This document shows positions 274 to 58,863 of a DNA stretch of 64,000 nucleotides, one piece after another. The stretch comes from Halorubrum halophilum (GTDB lineage Archaea; Halobacteriota; Halobacteria; Halobacteriales; Haloferacaceae): assembly GCF_000739595.1 (NCBI RefSeq), contig NZ_BBJP01000036.1, positions 1 to 64,000 of the forward strand, in the 5' to 3' direction. Position 1 is the first letter of the stretch; every line of letters begins with the position of its first letter. Both the position numbers and the translations under genes were made by a program. The notes under the pieces were generated by a model that saw only the letters and a program-made list of their open reading frames with translations, was not told where the DNA came from and searched no databases.

Positions 274-1554
274 ATGAAGCGAGCCAACACGTTCGAGGTG
301 ATTCCGCAGTCCGACGAGGACGAGGAGTTGCTTCGACGCCTGTTGGACGCTTCTGCCGCTCTCTGGAACGAAATTAACTACGAACGCCGCGAGAACTATG
401 CCGATCCCGACGCCGACGTGTGGGACATCAGCGAGTATCGCGGTCGCTATAGCGGAACACTCGGCGCATCCACGGTTCAGCAAATCGAACGGAAGAACCG
501 CGAAGCGTGGAAGTCGTTCTTCGCGCTCAAGGAAAAGGGCGAAGCCAACGGCAAACCCGGATTTTGGGGAAACGCAGACGAAGGCCGGGAACTCCGCACG
601 TACATCCGCAACACGTCGTACTCGGTCGAGTGGGGCGAATATTCCCGCCTCGAAATCCTCGTCGGCAAAGACCTGAAAGACGAGTACGGGCTTGGACACC
701 GTGAACGCCTCCGACTCGAAGTTCGAGGCGACCCCAGCTGGCAGGAGTACGAGAAGCAGGGTCGGTTGGAGTTGTTCTACGACGAGCAAGCACAATCGTT
801 CAGGGCCTTTCAGCCAGTCACAATTAGCGAAAATCATTCTCGACTGGCACAACCACTGGCTTCGGAAGAAGCCGCTCTGGACATCGGTGCGAACAACCTC
901 GTCGCCTGCACAACCACGACCGGCCAGCAACTTCTGTACGAAGGACGTGATCTGTTCGATAGATTCCGTGAAACAACGCGAGAGATCGCTCGGCTCCAAT
1001 CGCTCTTGGAGGAAGGTCGATACAGTAGTCACCGCATCCGACGCCTGTACGACCAACGAACCAAGCGACGTGACCACGCCCAAGACGCGCTTGCCCGTGA
1101 CCTCATCGAACGCCTGTACGACGAAGGCGTTTCAACAGTGTACGTCGGGGCATTAACTGACGTACTCGACACACACTGGTCAGTTGAGACGAACGCCAAG
1201 ACGCACAACTTCTGGGCGTTTAGAGCGTTCGTGAAGCGACTGGCGTGTACCGCCGAAGAATACGGCATATCGGTGGAGGTACGGTCTGAAGCGTGGACGA
1301 GTCAGGAGTGTCCGAACTGCGGTTCGACGGAGGACACGACGCGCCACCGTGACACGCTGACGTGTCCGTGTGGATTCGAAGGCCACGCCGACCTCACAGC
1401 GTCAGAGACGTTCCTTCGACGGCAGACGACGGTAACACGGTCGATGGCACGGCCTGTATGCCTCAAGTGGGACGACCACGACTGGTCAGAGTCACCACGC
1501 TCAGCTCTCAACGAGGAGCATACGAACCCGCAAGTTGCCTCCGTGGGTCGGTAA
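274..1554 (+). CDS. tnpB: TnpB, RNA-guided nuclease-family protein with altered RuvC-II motif
   Basis: The protein has 426 residues from ATG 274; a TTG just before it at 271 is a less likely start. RuvC-I is LDIGANN with D203, the zinc finger is C346-x2-C349 with C364-x-C366, and RuvC-III is GHAD with D373. The RuvC-II strand, which usually reads like VVVEDL, is here VYVGAL at 289-294, so the catalytic glutamate position holds glycine and the following acidic residue is alanine. As I recall, many haloarchaeal relatives also lack the glutamate but keep the aspartate. Active TnpB is an omega-RNA-guided DNA nuclease that maintains the element; this copy may be catalytically impaired. The 3' end of the gene would overlap the omega RNA. 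Confidence 0.9.
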
Positions 1555-1569
1555 GCGATACCCCCAGCG

Positions 1570-1605
1570 TGAGGAAACCTCGCCGTTCACGGCGAGGAGG
1601 ATGTC
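1570..1605 (+). ncRNA. Predicted 3' end of omega RNA scaffold / element right end
   Basis: An 8-bp stem (1578-1585 with 1590-1597, loop TTCA) lies 23 bases after the tnpB stop and is followed by GAGGATGTCA-like sequence before permease coding sequence resumes. In characterised TnpB systems the omega RNA overlaps the tnpB 3' end, ends at the element's right end, and takes its guide from flanking DNA. By that rule the guide would come from the permease sequence starting near 1606. The upstream limit of the RNA cannot be set from sequence alone. Confidence 0.45.
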
Positions 1606-2582
1606 ATTGGGGGCTGTTCGGCTTCGCCATCGTCTTCGTGTTCGTCGTGATGGCCCTCTGGGCGCCGGCGGTGAGCCCGGTCGAGGCGCAGCACAACATC
1701 TACGAGCCGAACGCCCACGAGTTCGAGTACCTCTCCGAGGACGGGGAGGTCACCTCGACCACACACGTCTTCGCGAACCTTCAGAGCCGCTCCGACGGCC
1801 AGACCACGATCGGACCGATGAGCTACGACGACTACGACAGGTGGGCGCCCTTGGGAACGACGAACAGAGGGCAAGACATGATGACACACCTCTCGCACGG
1901 CGCCCGAACGTCGCTCGCCATCGCGACAACGGCGATCGGGCTCGGAGCGCTCATCGCGGTCGTCCTCTCGCTCCTGTCGTCGTACTACAAGGGGATCACC
2001 GACATCGCGACGGTGATGGCCAGCGACACCATCCAGGCCGTCCCGGCGCTGCTCCTCATCATGCTCGTCTCAGTCGTCTTCCAAGAGGCGAACCATCCGA
2101 TCGCGCAACCGCTCGACGGCGGACTCCTGTTGGCGCTGATCTTCGCGTTGGCCTACTGGCCGGGGATGTGGCGCTCGATACGTGGCCCCTCGCTGCAGGT
2201 GTCTGAACAGGAGTGGGTCGACGCCGCGAAGAGCTACGGCCAGACGCCCTTCCAGACGATGCGAAAACACATGGCACCCTATATCGCCGGCTACATCCTG
2301 ATCTACGGATCGCTGCTGATCGGCGGCGTGATCATCTCGACCGCCGCGCTGACGTTCCTCGGGCTCGGAATCAATCCGCCGACCCCCGAGTGGGGACGGC
2401 TCATCGACGGCGGGCAGTCGTACGTCTCCACGTCCTCGTGGCACGTCGCGACCATTCCCGGGATCGCGATCGTCTTGGTCGTCATCGCGTTCAACGCGCT
2501 CGGTGACGCGATCCGCGACGCGATCGATCCGGAGGCCGACGTGGACGAGAGCGAGGCCGCCGCCACCGGGGGTGGTGCGTGA
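1606..2582 (+). pseudogene. ABC transporter permease (DppC/OppC-like), 5' end removed by tnpB element
   Basis: The retained part begins inside the first membrane segment (WGLFGFAIVFVFVVMALWAP) and continues through a typical DppC-type core to the stop at 2582. The EAA loop that contacts the ATPases is present as EWVDAAKSYGQTPFQTMRKH. About five further hydrophobic segments follow, as expected for this family. The frame stays open back into the 3' end of tnpB, but that upstream sequence belongs to the element, so the native N-terminus is lost or lies left of the window. A fused, shortened protein might still be made. It overlaps the next ATPase gene by one base (TGATG), so it belonged to one operon for dipeptide, oligopeptide or nickel import. 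Confidence 0.75.
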
Positions 2583-3943
2583 TGGCCGCCGACGAGCGGT
2601 CCGCGGCCGCGGCCGCGGCGACCGAGGAGAGCCGGAACGACGATCCGCTCATCGACGTTCGGAACCTCCAGACCGCCTTCTTCACCGACAAGGAGACGAT
2701 CCGCGCCGTCGACGGGATCGACTTCCAGATCGACTCCGGCCAGACGGTCGGCATCGTCGGCGAGAGCGGGAGCGGAAAGAGCGTCACGGCCCGCTCGCTG
2801 ATGGGGCTGATCGAGTCGCCCGGGCGCGTGCTCCGCGGGAGCAGCGTCCGCTACCGCGACCTCGACGCGGTCCGCGAGTTCGCCGGGACGTTCCCGAAGC
2901 GGACGGTCGCGGTCGAGGAGCTCGACGCCCGGTACGACCCCGCCGAGGTGTTCGGAGAGACCGACGCCACGCCGGGTGAGTTCGGCTACGCCGACCCCGC
3001 CGACGTGCCGGTGGTCGACGTGGCCGCGGCCGGCTACACCGACGAGGTCGGGATCACGGACGGCGACGAGTGCGTCTTCGTCCTCGACGGCGACGCCGGC
3101 TCGCCGGAGTCGATCCGCGACGGGTTCGTCGAGATCACTCGCCTCTCCGGCGAGGCCCAGCGCAAGATGCGCGGCGGCCGGATCGCGATGGTGTTTCAGG
3201 ACCCGCTGACCAGCCTCAACCCCGTCTACACGGTCGGCAACCAGATCGAGGAGGCGCTGGAGCTTCATCAGGGGCTCTCCGGGAGAGCGGCGACGCAGGA
3301 GGCCGCGGAGCTGCTCGAAGCGGTCGGGATCCCGGACGCCCGCCGCCGGGTCAACGAGTACCCGCACCAGTTCTCCGGCGGGATGCGCCAGCGCGCCGTC
3401 ATCGCGATGGCGCTGGCGTGCGAGCCCGACATGCTGATCTGCGACGAGCCGACCACCGCGCTCGACGTGACGATCCAGGCACAGATCTTGGACCTGATCG
3501 CGGAGATTCAGGAGTCGCGGGACGTGGCGGTGATGTTCATCACCCACGACATGGGCGTGATCGCCGACGTCTCCGACCGGGTCAACGTGATGTACGCCGG
3601 CGAAATCGTCGAGTCCGCCGACGTGGAGCCGCTGTTCGCGGACCCGAAACACCCGTACACCAACGGGCTCCTCGACTCGATCCCCGGCGGACAGGTCGGC
3701 GACAAGCTGTCGACGATCGACGGCAGCGTCCCGACGCCGAACGAGCCGGCGACGTACTGCCGGTTCGCGCCCCGGTGCCCGAAGGCGTTCGACGAGTGCG
3801 AGGCGGTCCACCCCGTTCCGACCCCGGTCGACGAGGAGAGCGAGGACCACACGGCCGCGTGCCTGCTGTACCCCGACGACGTTCCGACCGAGGAGGCCGT
3901 CGCGCGTCACCGGGGGCGAGACCGACGAGGTGATCGAGAATGA
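2582..3943 (+). CDS. Peptide/nickel ABC transporter ATPase, DppD/OppD type
   Basis: This 453-residue ATPase has Walker A GESGSGKS (60-67), a Q-loop VFQDP near 205, signature FSGGMRQR near 264-271, Walker B MLICDEP near 283-289 and the H-loop FITHD near 320. The C-terminus has the oligopeptide-transporter cysteine pattern (YCRFAPRCP, then C and AACLLY). Between Walker A and the Q-loop is an acidic insertion of about 100 residues (roughly 88-190) absent from bacterial OppD, making the protein about 110 residues longer than usual. It would power import through the permease encoded just upstream. The ATG at 2582 overlaps the permease stop. Confidence 0.92.
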
Positions 3944-5304
3944 GCCAGCACACAGCTCCGACGACGCCGGACGACGAGGGGAACACCGCGCCCGACACGA
4001 TGGTACAGGTGCGGGATCTGAAGACGTACTACGAGGGCGGCGGCCTGTTCGACGACCGCCCGGTCAAGGCGGTCGACGGCGTCAGCTTCGACATCCGGCG
4101 GGGCGAGACGCTCGGGCTCGTCGGCGAGTCCGGGTGCGGGAAGACCACCCTCGGCCGGACGCTCATCCGGCTCGAGGAGGCGACGGACGGCGAGGTCCTC
4201 TTCGACGGCACCGACATCACGGCGCTGCGCGGCGACCAGCTCTACGAGTGGCGTCAGAACGCCCAGATGGTGTTTCAGGACCCCGACTCCAGCCTGAACG
4301 ACCGGATGACGATCGGCGAGATCATCCGCGAGCCGCTCGACGTTCACGACTGGAAGACGCCCGCCGATCGCCGGAAGCGCGTCAAGTCCCTGCTCGACGA
4401 GGTGGGGCTCTCGCCCGAGCACTACTACCGGTACCCGCACCAGTTCTCGGGCGGACAGCGCCAGCGGATCGGCATCGCCCGGACGCTCGCGTTGAACCCC
4501 GAGTTCATCGTGCTCGACGAGCCGGTGAGCGCGCTCGACGTCTCGGTGCAGGCGGAGATCATCAACCTCCTCGAAGAGCTTCAGGAGGAGTTCGACCTCA
4601 CGTACCTGTTCATCGCCCACGACCTCTCGGTCGTCCGGCACATCTGCGACCGGGTCGCGGTGATGTACCTCGGCAACATCATGGAGATCGGGCCGACCGA
4701 GGAGCTGTTCACCGATCCGGCGAACCCGTACACCCACGCGCTCCTCTCGGCGATTCCCAAGCCGGACCCCACCGCGAGCCGCGACCGGATCACGCTCCAC
4801 GGGACGCCGCCGAACCCGCGGTACCCGCCGACGGGCTGTCCGTTCAGCACGCGGTGCCCGGCACGCATCCGCCCCGACGAGCACGAGAACCTCGACGACG
4901 AGGTCTGGGACGGGATCAACGGACTCCGCGAGATCATCCGCGAGCGCATGCGCGCCGACCGCTCGATCCGGGAGCGGGTCCGCGAGCGGTTCGGCCTGGA
5001 GACCCGCTTCGCCACGATCGACGAGACGTACGACGAGCTGTTCGGCGACCTCTCGGTGCCGGCCCGGGTCGAGCGCGTCCTCGCCGAGGTCACCGACGCC
5101 GCGGGCGACCACGAGGAACGGGAGGCGCTCGACCGGCTCAACGCCGAGTTCGGGAGCGCCTGTGACGGCGTCGACCCGGACGGCGGCGACGATCCCGTCG
5201 AGCCCGCGTACTACGAGGTGAGCGACAGCGGCCGCCTGAGCTACTGTCACCGCCACGCCGACGAGCACCGGGAGACGGCCGCCGTGATCGACGACCGCAG
5301 CTAG
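3940..5304 (+). CDS. Peptide/nickel ABC transporter ATPase, DppF/OppF type
   Basis: This 454-residue partner ATPase shows Walker A GESGCGKT (62-69), VFQDP near 110, signature FSGGQRQR near 168, [11 protein letters not shown] near 187 and IAHDLSV near 226. The C-terminal oligo_HPY-type region begins [12 protein letters not shown] but is interrupted by about 110 acidic and arginine-rich residues before the last cysteine (LSYCHRH near the end). Usual OppF proteins are about 330 residues. The start ATG overlaps the DppD-type stop by four bases (ATGA), so the two ATPases are translationally coupled. Confidence 0.92.
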
Positions 5305-54695: not shown

Positions 54696-55910
54696 ATGAA
54701 ACGGACGACGGTCGCCGTGGCGCTCCTCGTCGCGGTCGGCGTGGGGCTCGCGGCCTCCGGCTTCTTCGCCGGGGCGGGCGACGAGGCCCCGCCGCCGACC
54801 GTCGAGGAGCCGGCGCCCTCGGGAGTGGACGAGGCGTCGCTCATCGCGGTCGCCGGCGACTACCGGCTCTGGCCGTACACGAGCCGGAGCACCTCGGCCG
54901 AGGGGCGGACGCTCGCGATCAACGTCCTCTTTCACGCCGACGCGGCGACGACGCGGCGGGCGATCGAGGGGCAGACAGAGACCGGCTGGGAGGAGACAGA
55001 GGAGGCGGAGGCGGCGGCGACCGCCGACGCCGAGCGGGTGGAAGCGCTCGTTGAGCGCGACTGGGCGGACGCGCACAGCTCCGACCGCTACAGCTACGTG
55101 GAGGGCCCGGACGGCGGCGTCTGGCTGGGGGAGACGTTCGAGCTCCACGACGGCGCGTACCTCGGCGTGCGCGACCACCTCCGGGCGTACGAGTCGCCCG
55201 ACGGCGCCTACACCGCGGTGCAGGCCCACGAGGAGTACTACGACTGGTTCCGGCTCCGCCACACGGTGCCGGGCATCGACGACCCGTCGGTCCGGCTCGA
55301 AGACGAGTTCATCCACGGCGCGGTCGACGCTGAGGTCAGCCGCGAGTACCGCGGCATCGAGGGCGGGTGGAGCGACGGCTGGGTCTCGGTGGTCGAGCTG
55401 GCGGCGCTGGCGACGCTGTCCGGCGCGCTACTCCGGCGACGAACCCGAGCCGCGGCGGTCGAGTTCGCTCGCCGCGGTCGGCGAGAGGCGGTTCGACACG
55501 CGGACGCCGCGGTGCTCGGCGCCGCGCTCGCGGCCGTCATCGTCGGTGTCCGGGTGGCCGGAGTCGCGCTGGAGGCCGCGTACCCCGGAGTCGGACCGAA
55601 GCTCATCGCCGCCCCGCTGTACCTCGTCATCGCGGTCGGAATCCCGGCACTCGTCGTCGCGCGGGCGCCCGAGTCGGACCCGAGCGCGGCGCTTCTTGGG
55701 GTCGTCGTCGGGCTGGGCGCGGGGTTCGTGATCGACTTCGCCGCGCTCGGCGTGGCGGTGCCGCCCGACCTCCTCGTCCACCGGGTCGCCCTGCTCGCCG
55801 CGCTCGGCGTCGTCGCGATGGGGCGCGCCGCCGCTGACCGCCCGGTGCTCGCCGCGGGGCTGGCGGCGTGGGCGGTCGGGCTGGCACTCCCGCTCGCAGA
55901 CGTGATCTGA
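54696..55910 (+). CDS. Membrane protein with exported N-terminal domain, unknown function
   Basis: The 404-residue protein has a signal-like helix (MKRTTVAVALLVAVGVGLAA), an outside domain of about 200 residues rich in Trp, Tyr and Glu (GDYRLWPYTSRSTSAEGRTL, RYSYVEGPDGGVWLGETFEL), then five or six membrane helices from about 230 on, some arginine-flanked (ALLRRRTRAAAVEFARRGRR). I recognise no family. The following gene starts about 110 bases later and could be part of the same group. Confidence 0.7.
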   Translation: MKRTTVAVALLVAVGVGLAASGFFAGAGDEAPPPTVEEPAPSGVDEASLIAVAGDYRLWPYTSRSTSAEGRTLAINVLFHADAATTRRAIEGQTETGWEETEEAEAAATADAERVEALVERDWADAHSSDRYSYVEGPDGGVWLGETFELHDGAYLGVRDHLRAYESPDGAYTAVQAHEEYYDWFRLRHTVPGIDDPSVRLEDEFIHGAVDAEVSREYRGIEGGWSDGWVSVVELAALATLSGALLRRRTRAAAVEFARRGRREAVRHADAAVLGAALAAVIVGVRVAGVALEAAYPGVGPKLIAAPLYLVIAVGIPALVVARAPESDPSAALLGVVVGLGAGFVIDFAALGVAVPPDLLVHRVALLAALGVVAMGRAAADRPVLAAGLAAWAVGLALPLADVI

Positions 55911-56017: not shown

Positions 56018-58030
56018 ATGACGCGGCAGGCCAGCCGGCGCGGGGTGCTCGCGGGCGGGTTCGCGGCCCTGAGCGCCGGCTGTCTCGGTCGCACGCGGAA
56101 CATCGCCGGACGCGACCGGTCCTCGCAGTTGACCCTAGAGATCAACGCCCCGCCCGCCGACAGAGATCCCAACGCGATCCGGATCGCGAGACACCTCGCC
56201 GAGAACCTGGACGCGGTGGGCATCGACGCCCGGATCAACACACTCGGGCTCACCGACCTCCGGCGGAAGGTGCTCATCAACCACAACTTCGACGTGTACG
56301 TCGGGCAGTTCCGGGAAGCGGAACCGTTCGACCCGGACGCGATGTACGGGTTCACCCACTCGCAGTTCGTCGCGGAGTCGGGGTGGCAGAACCCGTTCGG
56401 GTTCACCGACATCAACGGCACCGACGAGCTGCTCGCGAGCCAGCGCCGGATGGACGGCGACGAGCGACGCGAGGCGGTGGCGGACCTCCAGCGGACCCTC
56501 GGCGAACTGCAGCCGTTCACGGTCGTCGCGTTTCCAGACCCACTCACGGCGGTCCGCGAGGACCGCTTCGAGAACTGGACGAACCGGCAACCGCTGTCGG
56601 TCGGGGGGTTGCTCGGGTTGGAGCGCGTCGACGGAGGGGGCGCCGGCGGGGGCGAGACCGAAGGCGGGAACGGGACGGACGGCGACGGCGCCAACCGGAC
56701 CGCCGACGGCAACGAGACCGCCGACGGCAACGAGACCGCCGACGGCAACGAGACCGCCGACAACGAGACCGGGGACGGGCTGATCGACGACACCCCGCTC
56801 GCCGACGACGACGGTGCGAGCGACGCCGCGACCCTCCGGCTCGTGACGACCGACGAGCGCATCACGCAGAACTGGAACCCGATCGCCGCCGAGTACCGGC
56901 ACTACGGCACCTTCACCTCCCTGCTGTACGACCGGCTCGCGCTGGTCGACGACGGGGAGGTGATCCCGTGGCTCGCGGCCGACTGGGGGCGCGTCGGCGA
57001 TTCGGGGATCGAGATCTCGCTTCGGGAGGCTGACTGGCACGACGGGGAACCGGTGACGGCCGACGACGTCGCGTTCACGTACGAGTTCCTCCGCGATACC
57101 GCGATGGGAACGACCGAGTCGCCGGTGCCGACGCCGACGTTCCGCGGTCGGGTGTCCGCCGTCGACGAGGCGACCGCCGTCGACGAGGCGACGGTCAGGC
57201 TAACGCTCGACGGGGTTACCGATGCGGTCGGCGTGCGCGCGCTCCAAGTCCCGATCCTCCCGAAGCACGTCTGGGAGGAACGGACCGGCGTGGCGACGAT
57301 CGGCGGCTTCGAGTTCGACGCGGAGACGACGGAGGCCGTGGTGACGAACAACGAGAACCCGATCGGGAGCGGCCCGGTACGGTTCGTCGAGGCCTCCCCG
57401 GAGGAGTCGGTCGCCTTCGAGCGCAACCCGGACCACTTCCTGACTCGTGCGGCCGACGGCTCGACCGGCGGGACAGACGGCGACGACTCGACCGACGACG
57501 AGGCGGACCCGCTCGCGGGGATCCCCGAGCGGTTCCGCGGGAAGCCGGCGTTCGACCGGCTGGAGATCGAGGTGATGGGGTCGGACATCGCAGCGGTACA
57601 GGCGGTCGGCGACGGGTTCGCGGACGCGACCGTCTCGAACCTCGGTCCGGACTCCATCCCCCGAATCGGACGCGAGGCCGACGCGCGGCTCGTCACGGGC
57701 CAGTCCGGCGGGTTCTACCACGTCGGTTACAACACCCGACGAGCGCCGCTGTCGAACCCCCGGTTCCGCGGAGTGCTCGCGTCGCTGATCGACAAGCGGA
57801 CTCTCGTCGACACCGCGTTCAACGGGTACGCCGAAGCCGCCGTCTCGCCGCTCGCCGCCACCCCCGAGTGGGTACCGTCGGACCTCCGGTGGGAGGACCG
57901 CGAGACCGACCCCGTCCACCCGTTCGTCAGTGAGTCCGGATCGCTCGACGCCGAGACCGCCCGCGACCGGCTCCGCGAGGCCGGGTACCGGTTCGATGAG
58001 GAGGGGCGGCTGCTCGCGCCGGACACATGA
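56018..58030 (+). CDS. ABC substrate-binding lipoprotein (SBP family 5), circularly permuted
   Basis: The 670-residue protein has a Tat signal and lipobox (RRGVLAGGFAALSAGC, Cys22). Residues 37-205 (LTLEINAPPADRDPNAIRIA, LDAVGIDARINTLG, NFDVYVGQF) look like the C-terminal part of an OppA-type protein. Residues from 271 (LRLVTTDERITQNWNPIAAE) are its N-terminal and middle part and end with ARDRLREAGYRFDEEGRLLA, exactly where the normal family would continue into the segment found at the N-terminus. The linker near 228-250 holds NET sequon repeats. It would deliver peptides or similar to an ABC importer; none is adjacent. Confidence 0.85.
   Translation: MTRQASRRGVLAGGFAALSAGCLGRTRNIAGRDRSSQLTLEINAPPADRDPNAIRIARHLAENLDAVGIDARINTLGLTDLRRKVLINHNFDVYVGQFREAEPFDPDAMYGFTHSQFVAESGWQNPFGFTDINGTDELLASQRRMDGDERREAVADLQRTLGELQPFTVVAFPDPLTAVREDRFENWTNRQPLSVGGLLGLERVDGGGAGGGETEGGNGTDGDGANRTADGNETADGNETADGNETADNETGDGLIDDTPLADDDGASDAATLRLVTTDERITQNWNPIAAEYRHYGTFTSLLYDRLALVDDGEVIPWLAADWGRVGDSGIEISLREADWHDGEPVTADDVAFTYEFLRDTAMGTTESPVPTPTFRGRVSAVDEATAVDEATVRLTLDGVTDAVGVRALQVPILPKHVWEERTGVATIGGFEFDAETTEAVVTNNENPIGSGPVRFVEASPEESVAFERNPDHFLTRAADGSTGGTDGDDSTDDEADPLAGIPERFRGKPAFDRLEIEVMGSDIAAVQAVGDGFADATVSNLGPDSIPRIGREADARLVTGQSGGFYHVGYNTRRAPLSNPRFRGVLASLIDKRTLVDTAFNGYAEAAVSPLAATPEWVPSDLRWEDRETDPVHPFVSESGSLDAETARDRLREAGYRFDEEGRLLAPDT
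56701..56769 (+). repeat. Tandem 18-bp coding repeat giving NET sequons
   Basis: CGCCGACGGCAACGAGAC occurs three times in a row (56701-56754), followed by a 15-base shortened copy. Each codes for (T)ADGNE and places Asn-Glu-Thr, an N-glycosylation sequon, in the linker between the two swapped parts of the substrate-binding protein. Repeat number is likely to vary between strains. Confidence 0.9.
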
Positions 58031-58863
58031 GCCCGCTCCTGTCGGTCGTGGGGTCGCTCGCGCTGTGGGTGGGCTCCGCCCTGCTCGTCGCGAGCGTCGC
58101 CATCGTCGGTCCGCGGCGGCTGTACGCGCTCTGGAACGACCTGCGCGACCGGCTGTGGGAGATCCGGAAGCCCCTCGCCGCGCTGGTGGTCGTGTTGATA
58201 GCGAGCGCGATCGGTCGGAGCTCCCTCCAGACGGTCTCGGAGCTGTTCGGGCTTCCACTGACGTGGGCAATCTACGCGTTGGAGGGCAACTTCGTCGCGT
58301 GGGTGCAGGCGACGTTCGGCTCCCCGCGGCTGACGATGTACTTCTCGGCGGTGTACGTGTACGGGTACGTGTTCCTGCTCGCGTTCCCGTTCCTCGCGTA
58401 CCTGGCCCTCCCGCGGACGACGACCGTGAAGCGGCTCATCGTCGCGTACGCGCTCAACTACGCGATCGGCCTCGTGCTCTACACGATCGTCCTCGCGCAT
58501 GGCCCGCGCAACGTCATGCCCGAGATGGTGACCTCGCTGCTTTTCACCCACAACCCGGAGTTCATGGCGCTGACGGGCGAGGTGAACGAGCCGACGAACG
58601 TCTTCCCCTCGCTGCACACGTCGCTGTCGGTGACCATCGGGACGTTCGCGGTCCTGACCCGGCGGGAGTACCCGCTGTGGACGCCGATCGCCGCGTGGCT
58701 CGCGACGAGCGTGGTGATCGCGACGATGTACCTCGGGATCCACTGGCTCACCGACGTGATCGGCGGGACCGCGCTGGCGCTCGGCGCGGTGTACCTGTCG
58801 TATCGGATCGTCGACGAGGACGGGGGGAGAGAGGGAGAAAACGGCGTCGACAGCGAGGAGTGA
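58027..58863 (+). CDS. PAP2/phosphatidic acid phosphatase-like membrane protein
   Basis: The 278-residue protein has about seven hydrophobic segments and the later two PAP2 motifs: NVFPSLHTSLSV with the catalytic histidine and YLGIHWLTDVIGG with the second. The first motif (KxxxxxxRP) is not obvious, as in the IPC-synthase/AUR1-like branch. It may hydrolyse or transfer lipid phosphates. The start overlaps the substrate-binding protein stop (ATGA). Confidence 0.85.
   Translation: MSPLLSVVGSLALWVGSALLVASVAIVGPRRLYALWNDLRDRLWEIRKPLAALVVVLIASAIGRSSLQTVSELFGLPLTWAIYALEGNFVAWVQATFGSPRLTMYFSAVYVYGYVFLLAFPFLAYLALPRTTTVKRLIVAYALNYAIGLVLYTIVLAHGPRNVMPEMVTSLLFTHNPEFMALTGEVNEPTNVFPSLHTSLSVTIGTFAVLTRREYPLWTPIAAWLATSVVIATMYLGIHWLTDVIGGTALALGAVYLSYRIVDEDGGREGENGVDSEE

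Follow-up and report, generated by a model that had tools for sequence, protein, structure and literature searches.

A probable circular permutation in a family-5 substrate-binding lipoprotein of Halorubrum halophilum, with permuted relatives across the Halobacteriales

To our knowledge, natural circular permutation in binding proteins is known mainly from one structure, that of Tp0684, which belongs to another class than the proteins considered here. Tp0684 (TpMglB-2) of Treponema pallidum is a naturally permuted, lipid-anchored, bilobed ligand-binding protein with normal function, and its authors proposed a 'cluster Bc' (PMC4990184). Saposin/swaposin and the DNA methyltransferases are the textbook gene-level permutations explained by tandem duplication and loss (PMC3320104); their folds are unrelated to those of family-5 substrate-binding proteins (SBPs). 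Within family 5, the SBPs of the OppA/DppA/AppA/NikA type (PF00496; AppA 1xoc, DppA 1dpp, Lmo0135 5isu) are homologous to the protein described here over both of its parts and provide its closest solved structures, but they have the normal order, and the PDB matches listed included no permuted solved structure of family 5. We found no permuted family-5 SBP in the open-access literature, and neither NCBI annotation nor NCBIfam gives any hint of permutation.

The protein is encoded in a stretch of 64,000 nucleotides from H. halophilum (contig NZ_BBJP01000036.1, positions 1 to 64,000), hereafter the window. Very probably, a cluster-C (family-5) SBP has here undergone a true circular permutation at the level of the gene, so that its segments are swapped, a linker joins the old ends and the new ends fall in the loop that follows the AGY helix/hairpin (Table 1). 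The product begins with MTRQASRRGVLAGG...SAGC, comprising a Tat motif and a lipobox, and ends with REAGYRFDEEGRLLAPDT, just past the AGY helix/hairpin. The haloarchaeal Tat lipoprotein pattern, SRR ... SAGC, occupies residues 6-22 and is conserved in alignment A1, where the signal is kept N-terminal in nearly all examined relatives; the protein is predicted to be exported and processed as a Tat lipoprotein. Like Tp0684, it combines natural permutation with a lipid anchor and conservation in a family, and its predicted fold may be compared with the bilobed fold of Tp0684. The two cases differ in that Tp0684 is a Type I/cluster B sugar-binding protein in which about 100 residues are moved, whereas the haloarchaeal case lies in family 5/cluster C, involves about 170 moved residues (about 60-85 in other clades) and probably had several independent origins. 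Both the profile and the structural relatives of the window protein are those of family 5/cluster C, which places it outside cluster Bc.

Table 1. Coordinates of the permuted SBP gene, its parts, its neighbors and a tandem-duplicated relative (window positions unless a contig is given)
Feature	Position	Strand	Basis or remark
SBP_bac_5 lipoprotein, 670 aa, very probably circularly permuted	56018..58030	+	Pfam pieces, rotation, doubling, AlphaFold2
Residues 1-22, twin-arginine signal (SRR) with lipobox SAGC	56018..56083	+	Sequence, alignment A1
Residues 35-206, counterpart of the C-terminal segment in family-5 SBPs of normal order	56120..56635	+	Pfam profile 295-364; own HMM 357-496; pLDDT about 85-97
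Residues 207-270, acidic low-complexity linker bridging the two old termini, predicted disordered	56636..56827	+	6 N-X-S/T sequons
Residues 271-670, counterpart of the N-terminal part	56828..58027	+	Pfam profile 1-279; own HMM 3-359
PAP2_3/PAP2 membrane phosphatase-family protein	58027..58863	+	Start codon overlaps SBP stop codon (ATGA)
Membrane protein with conserved extracytoplasmic domain (RLWPYTSR ... QAHxEYWDWFRLRHTV)	54696..55910	+	No confident Pfam family
Tandem-duplicated fused SBP (L085 / L266)	G171:C1 about 2361000-2366500		

The initial annotation had proposed that the chain opens with the segment that normally ends an OppA-type protein and that it stops where a normal chain would run into that segment. 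Both points hold when the protein is divided. The whole chain matches SBP_bac_5 (PF00496) in two stretches with 159.2 bits, compared with a cut-off of 32.4. Residues 35-206 match profile positions 295-364 (18.9 bits, E 9e-4) and the remainder of the protein matches positions 1-279 (143.9 bits), so that the split-profile search suggested in that annotation gives the C-part before the N-part, in the order predicted. Rotated back, the chain matches positions 1-363 in one stretch with 170.8 bits, above the score of the native whole protein, which in turn exceeds that of the N-part alone. The profile is thus nearly all covered in a swapped rather than canonical order, and on the homology of both parts we would file the protein as a permuted, non-canonical member of PF00496. 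Both segments derive from one parent family, stand in swapped order and have their old ends joined, as is required of a circularly permuted protein.

Searches with a profile of our own give the same picture. This HMM was built from 29 seeds, mostly unpermuted haloarchaeal family-5 SBPs, although four of them later proved to be tail-permuted. Scanning all rotations of the window protein, we obtained the best single-domain score (172 bits, compared with 134 bits in native order) for a start at residue 211, inside the linker. When sequences were doubled, proteins of the window family (P0001 type) gained 12-57 bits and unpermuted controls gained 0 or less; two supposed unpermuted controls at +6/+7 bits, L066 and L071, were later found to be permuted at another site. 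In PDB sequence searches, the two halves align in swapped order to AppA and Lmo0135, both unpermuted, and the break maps to the stretch from about position 345 to about position 366 of the AppA chain.

A rival account takes residues 35-206 for an added domain of unrelated origin that precedes a truncated, degenerate SBP. It would agree with a best native Pfam stretch spanning just profile positions 1-279, and with an N-terminal piece that alone falls under the Pfam gathering score (18.9 versus 32.4 bits). We give this account almost no credence, given that against the C-part of the haloarchaeal HMM this piece reaches 26.2 bits, compared with 7.5 for the highest-scoring of 1573 reported shuffles, and that the score of the whole chain rises in rotated order. 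In addition, the equivalent piece of a bacterial relative, L176 from Halomonas socia, gives 60 or more bits, and permuted/unpermuted pairs from related clades align over both pieces with 59-68% identity. An assembly artefact is ruled out by the presence of the same order in many independent genomes.

The predicted structure agrees with a permuted SBP. An AlphaFold2 model computed with 32 relatives has a mean pLDDT of 81.7 and a pTM of 0.80, with pLDDT < 50 only in the signal (1-34) and the linker (207-268). The initial annotation had named an unrelated fold for residues 37-205 as the result that would overturn it; instead, these residues lie within one fold at a pLDDT of about 85-97. Foldseek places family-5 SBPs at the top of its PDB matches (NikZ 4oet, AccA, AppA 1xoc, and sialic-acid- and chitin-binding SBPs; E down to 1e-14). 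Its sequential alignment covers only about 410 columns, with a TM by target of about 0.5, which is as expected if the remaining part is out of order, and which is no proof of the whole arrangement. The predicted structure of L176 (pTM 0.80) has an element order closely similar to that of the window model. Taken from the model, the window protein would fold as a normal two-lobe flytrap that presumably binds its ligand at the outer face of the membrane.

The permutation of the window protein is neither an oddity nor recent. Relatives are found by tblastn throughout the family and the order Halobacteriales, and at the level of the class about 189/292 Halobacteria genomes, counted by hand, have a match at E 2e-38 or better. 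Every orthologue extracted agrees with the window protein in its segment order and in breaking after the AGY helix/hairpin; named members of the clade include those of Halorubrum saccharovorum, H. kocurii, Natrinema, Halovivax, Halomarina, Halovenus and Halostella. The linker is not a conserved feature because its length in relatives ranges from 3 to 77 aa. The initial annotation had described it as a glycosylation-sequon linker, and the sequons are indeed present (6 N-X-S/T within residues 206-270), but a special role for them is unsupported given this variation in length.

The window protein is one of several permuted SBPs in its own genome. Among the six PF00496 proteins of the host, 4/6 are permuted and two (L001 and L002) have the normal order. 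The C-part comes first in the window protein and in L006/L086, and in L086 the break lies earlier, before the AGY helix. In L003 (contig 97) and L004 (contig 77), the final 60-85 residues of a normal chain now stand at the N-terminus, and these are two independent tail permutations. L086 (contig 81) is a solitary gene flanked by dnaK/dnaJ-like and by lysine-biosynthesis (dap-like) genes; no permease was found close to it. Across 15 Halorubrum genomes, a tally made by hand with one broken gene excluded gives 34 normal, 37 C-first and 8 tail-first proteins; 45/79 intact family-5 SBPs are therefore permuted, with three kinds of breakpoint. The view in the initial annotation that permuted proteins of this class are rarely described is borne out by the literature but not by the genomes, where they are not rare. 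A reading of that single gene could not reveal the conservation across the order, the three further permuted SBPs, broken at other sites, in this one genome or the repeated origin.

Permuted SBPs also occur in bacteria, where their spread is known from genome contigs and plasmids. Those of Ketogulonicigenium vulgare (WP_013385786.1), Roseomonas (WP_207415789.1) and Halomonas socia (L176) resemble the window protein in having the C-part first and the break after AGY, and differ from it in lying in Dpp-type operons and lacking a long linker. They are annotated merely as 'ABC transporter substrate-binding protein', with no mention of permutation. A Cytobacillus match was shown on closer analysis to be unpermuted. 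In another class of the phylum, a 789-aa frame (L233, G390:C1:1818500-1822500) has PF00496 matches to positions 149-353 before 28-133, and its sequence suggests that it may be yet another permuted protein, broken at a different site.

ABC import evidently tolerates permutation because permuted SBPs of several clades directly precede Dpp permease genes. This is the case for the haloarchaeal L003, L004, L090, L092, L095, L180, L236 and L270 (Halalkalicoccus) and for the proteobacterial L175-L177, L268 and L271. On this gene order, the SBP in permuted clades other than that of the window would appear to be the binding component of a Dpp/Opp-type ABC importer.

Closely related pairs bear on how the permutations arose. 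Permuted L086 and normal L100 are 68% and 66% identical across the two swapped blocks, and permuted L004 and unpermuted L121 are 67% and 59% identical. In L086, the old C-terminal end passes almost directly into the old N-terminal end. L085 is a single frame of 1582 codons in which one Tat signal is followed by two complete SBPs that share 70% identity, and a tandem in-frame intermediate of this kind is what the permutation-by-duplication model predicts (PMC3320104). It supports that model only indirectly because it belongs to another lineage and is not the parent of the permuted genes. Comparison of these sequences fits an origin by duplication. An SBP gene would have been duplicated in tandem and in frame, the front of the first copy then lost behind the signal peptide and the back of the second copy lost as well, and the same process of duplication and loss would have been repeated within family 5.

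The other accepted model is fission and fusion (PMC3320104), by which two separate half-genes would have been joined in the new order without a tandem-duplicated intermediate, and segment matches alone cannot separate it from duplication. We regard it as unlikely: the almost direct junction of L086, seen against L100, is what one would expect from head-to-tail duplication, L085 is an existing tandem double SBP in one frame with copies 70% identical, and apart from apparent broken genes we met no pair of split half-genes. With permuted proteins closely paired to unpermuted ones, breakpoints held in common and a tandem-duplicated gene all available, the origin of circular permutations and their effects on binding and docking can be tested directly within one genus.

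We asked how often permutation has occurred using trees built on rotated sequences, so that all proteins are aligned in one register, and AU tests on a 36-row tree. On this tree the permuted state requires eight changes, seven of which are forced by well-supported branches, and bootstraps give 8-9. Placing every C-first protein in a single clade is rejected (delta lnL 442, p 2e-5), as is one origin of the tail-first proteins (p 7e-6) and one origin of the breakpoint-B proteins (p 1e-36). Grouping the window clade with the ABC-linked clade, with which it shares its breakpoint, is only weakly rejected (AU p 0.036), so that the two may quite possibly go back to a single origin; uniting L236/L091 with L237/L075 is likewise rejected only weakly (p 0.025). 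Because the members of these two groupings are separated only weakly, we count conservatively at least five events, in the window/ABC clade, the L086 clade, the L236/L237 group, the L003 clade and the L004 clade. Gains are favored over losses because the permuted proteins are nested beside unpermuted sisters and the normal order prevails in the family at large; change counts alone cannot separate the two.

One ancient permutation behind all permuted family-5 SBPs, with the nested unpermuted forms as reversions or tree errors, could draw on the breakpoint common to the ABC-linked and window clades and on the weak rejection of their joint grouping. It is very improbable in view of the three rejected groupings, the differing breakpoints and the minimum of seven well-supported changes. 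We think it probable that the haloarchaeal family-5 SBPs are a hot spot in which permutation has arisen independently five times or more, mostly with function kept, at three recurrent breakpoints, of which one is shared with Proteobacteria; the route would be duplication and loss, with a tandem intermediate surviving. If so, relocating the lipid anchor on the flytrap may be selectively useful. Permuted family-5 SBPs appear to be previously undescribed; among ligand-binding proteins, Tp0684 already provides a case of natural permutation, and it is the recurrence that is unusual, with a very common family of transporter components showing permutation several times over. The rearrangement is hidden by profile annotation, in which the proteins carry generic SBP labels and the domain models end at the breakpoint.

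The gene neighborhood of the window clade differs from that of several other permuted clades, which are encoded with DppB/C permeases and ATPases as is typical of Dpp/Opp systems. No DppB/C homologue adjoins the SBP gene in any of the 43 window-clade loci compared, and the DppC/DppD genes of the window itself lie over 50 kb from the permuted gene. Ligand binding by this clade is something we infer from the fold and its conservation. The partner of the window protein could be a permease encoded elsewhere or, equally tentatively, a process involving envelope lipids or glycoconjugates. In the 21 loci compared in detail of content, a PAP2-family gene is present in 11/21, the upstream membrane protein in 9/21, arylsulfotransferase-like genes in 8/21 and PMT_2-like genes in 5/21. 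These neighbors, the overlap of the SBP stop with the PAP2 start and the missing DppB/C homologues would all suit a window clade that has left transport and, together with the PAP2 enzyme and the neighboring membrane protein, acts in an envelope pathway as its ligand sensor or chaperone. We hold this role to be possible, at somewhat less than an even chance, in that a permease encoded elsewhere may serve orphan SBPs and the neighborhood is not universal.

The upstream membrane protein carries invariant WPxT, R-H-R-Y and D-W-x-R-x-R-H motifs and is perhaps a partner of the PAP2 enzyme; Pfam and NCBIfam searches with it gave nothing usable. At the other end of the window, near the contig edge, a TnpB-like (IS200/IS605-type) transposon gene (271-1554) directly precedes the DppC gene (about 1560-2582), which is followed by two DppD/F-type ATPase genes (2579-5304). 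From motifs and tblastn, this region (1362-5304) would be an ABC peptide operon interrupted by the contig end or by the TnpB-like element. Tandem pairs of permuted SBP genes occur in Natrialbaceae and relatives (L052, L055, L159, L161-L164, L166 and L172), and at least once (L055) a PAP2 gene lies between the paired genes.
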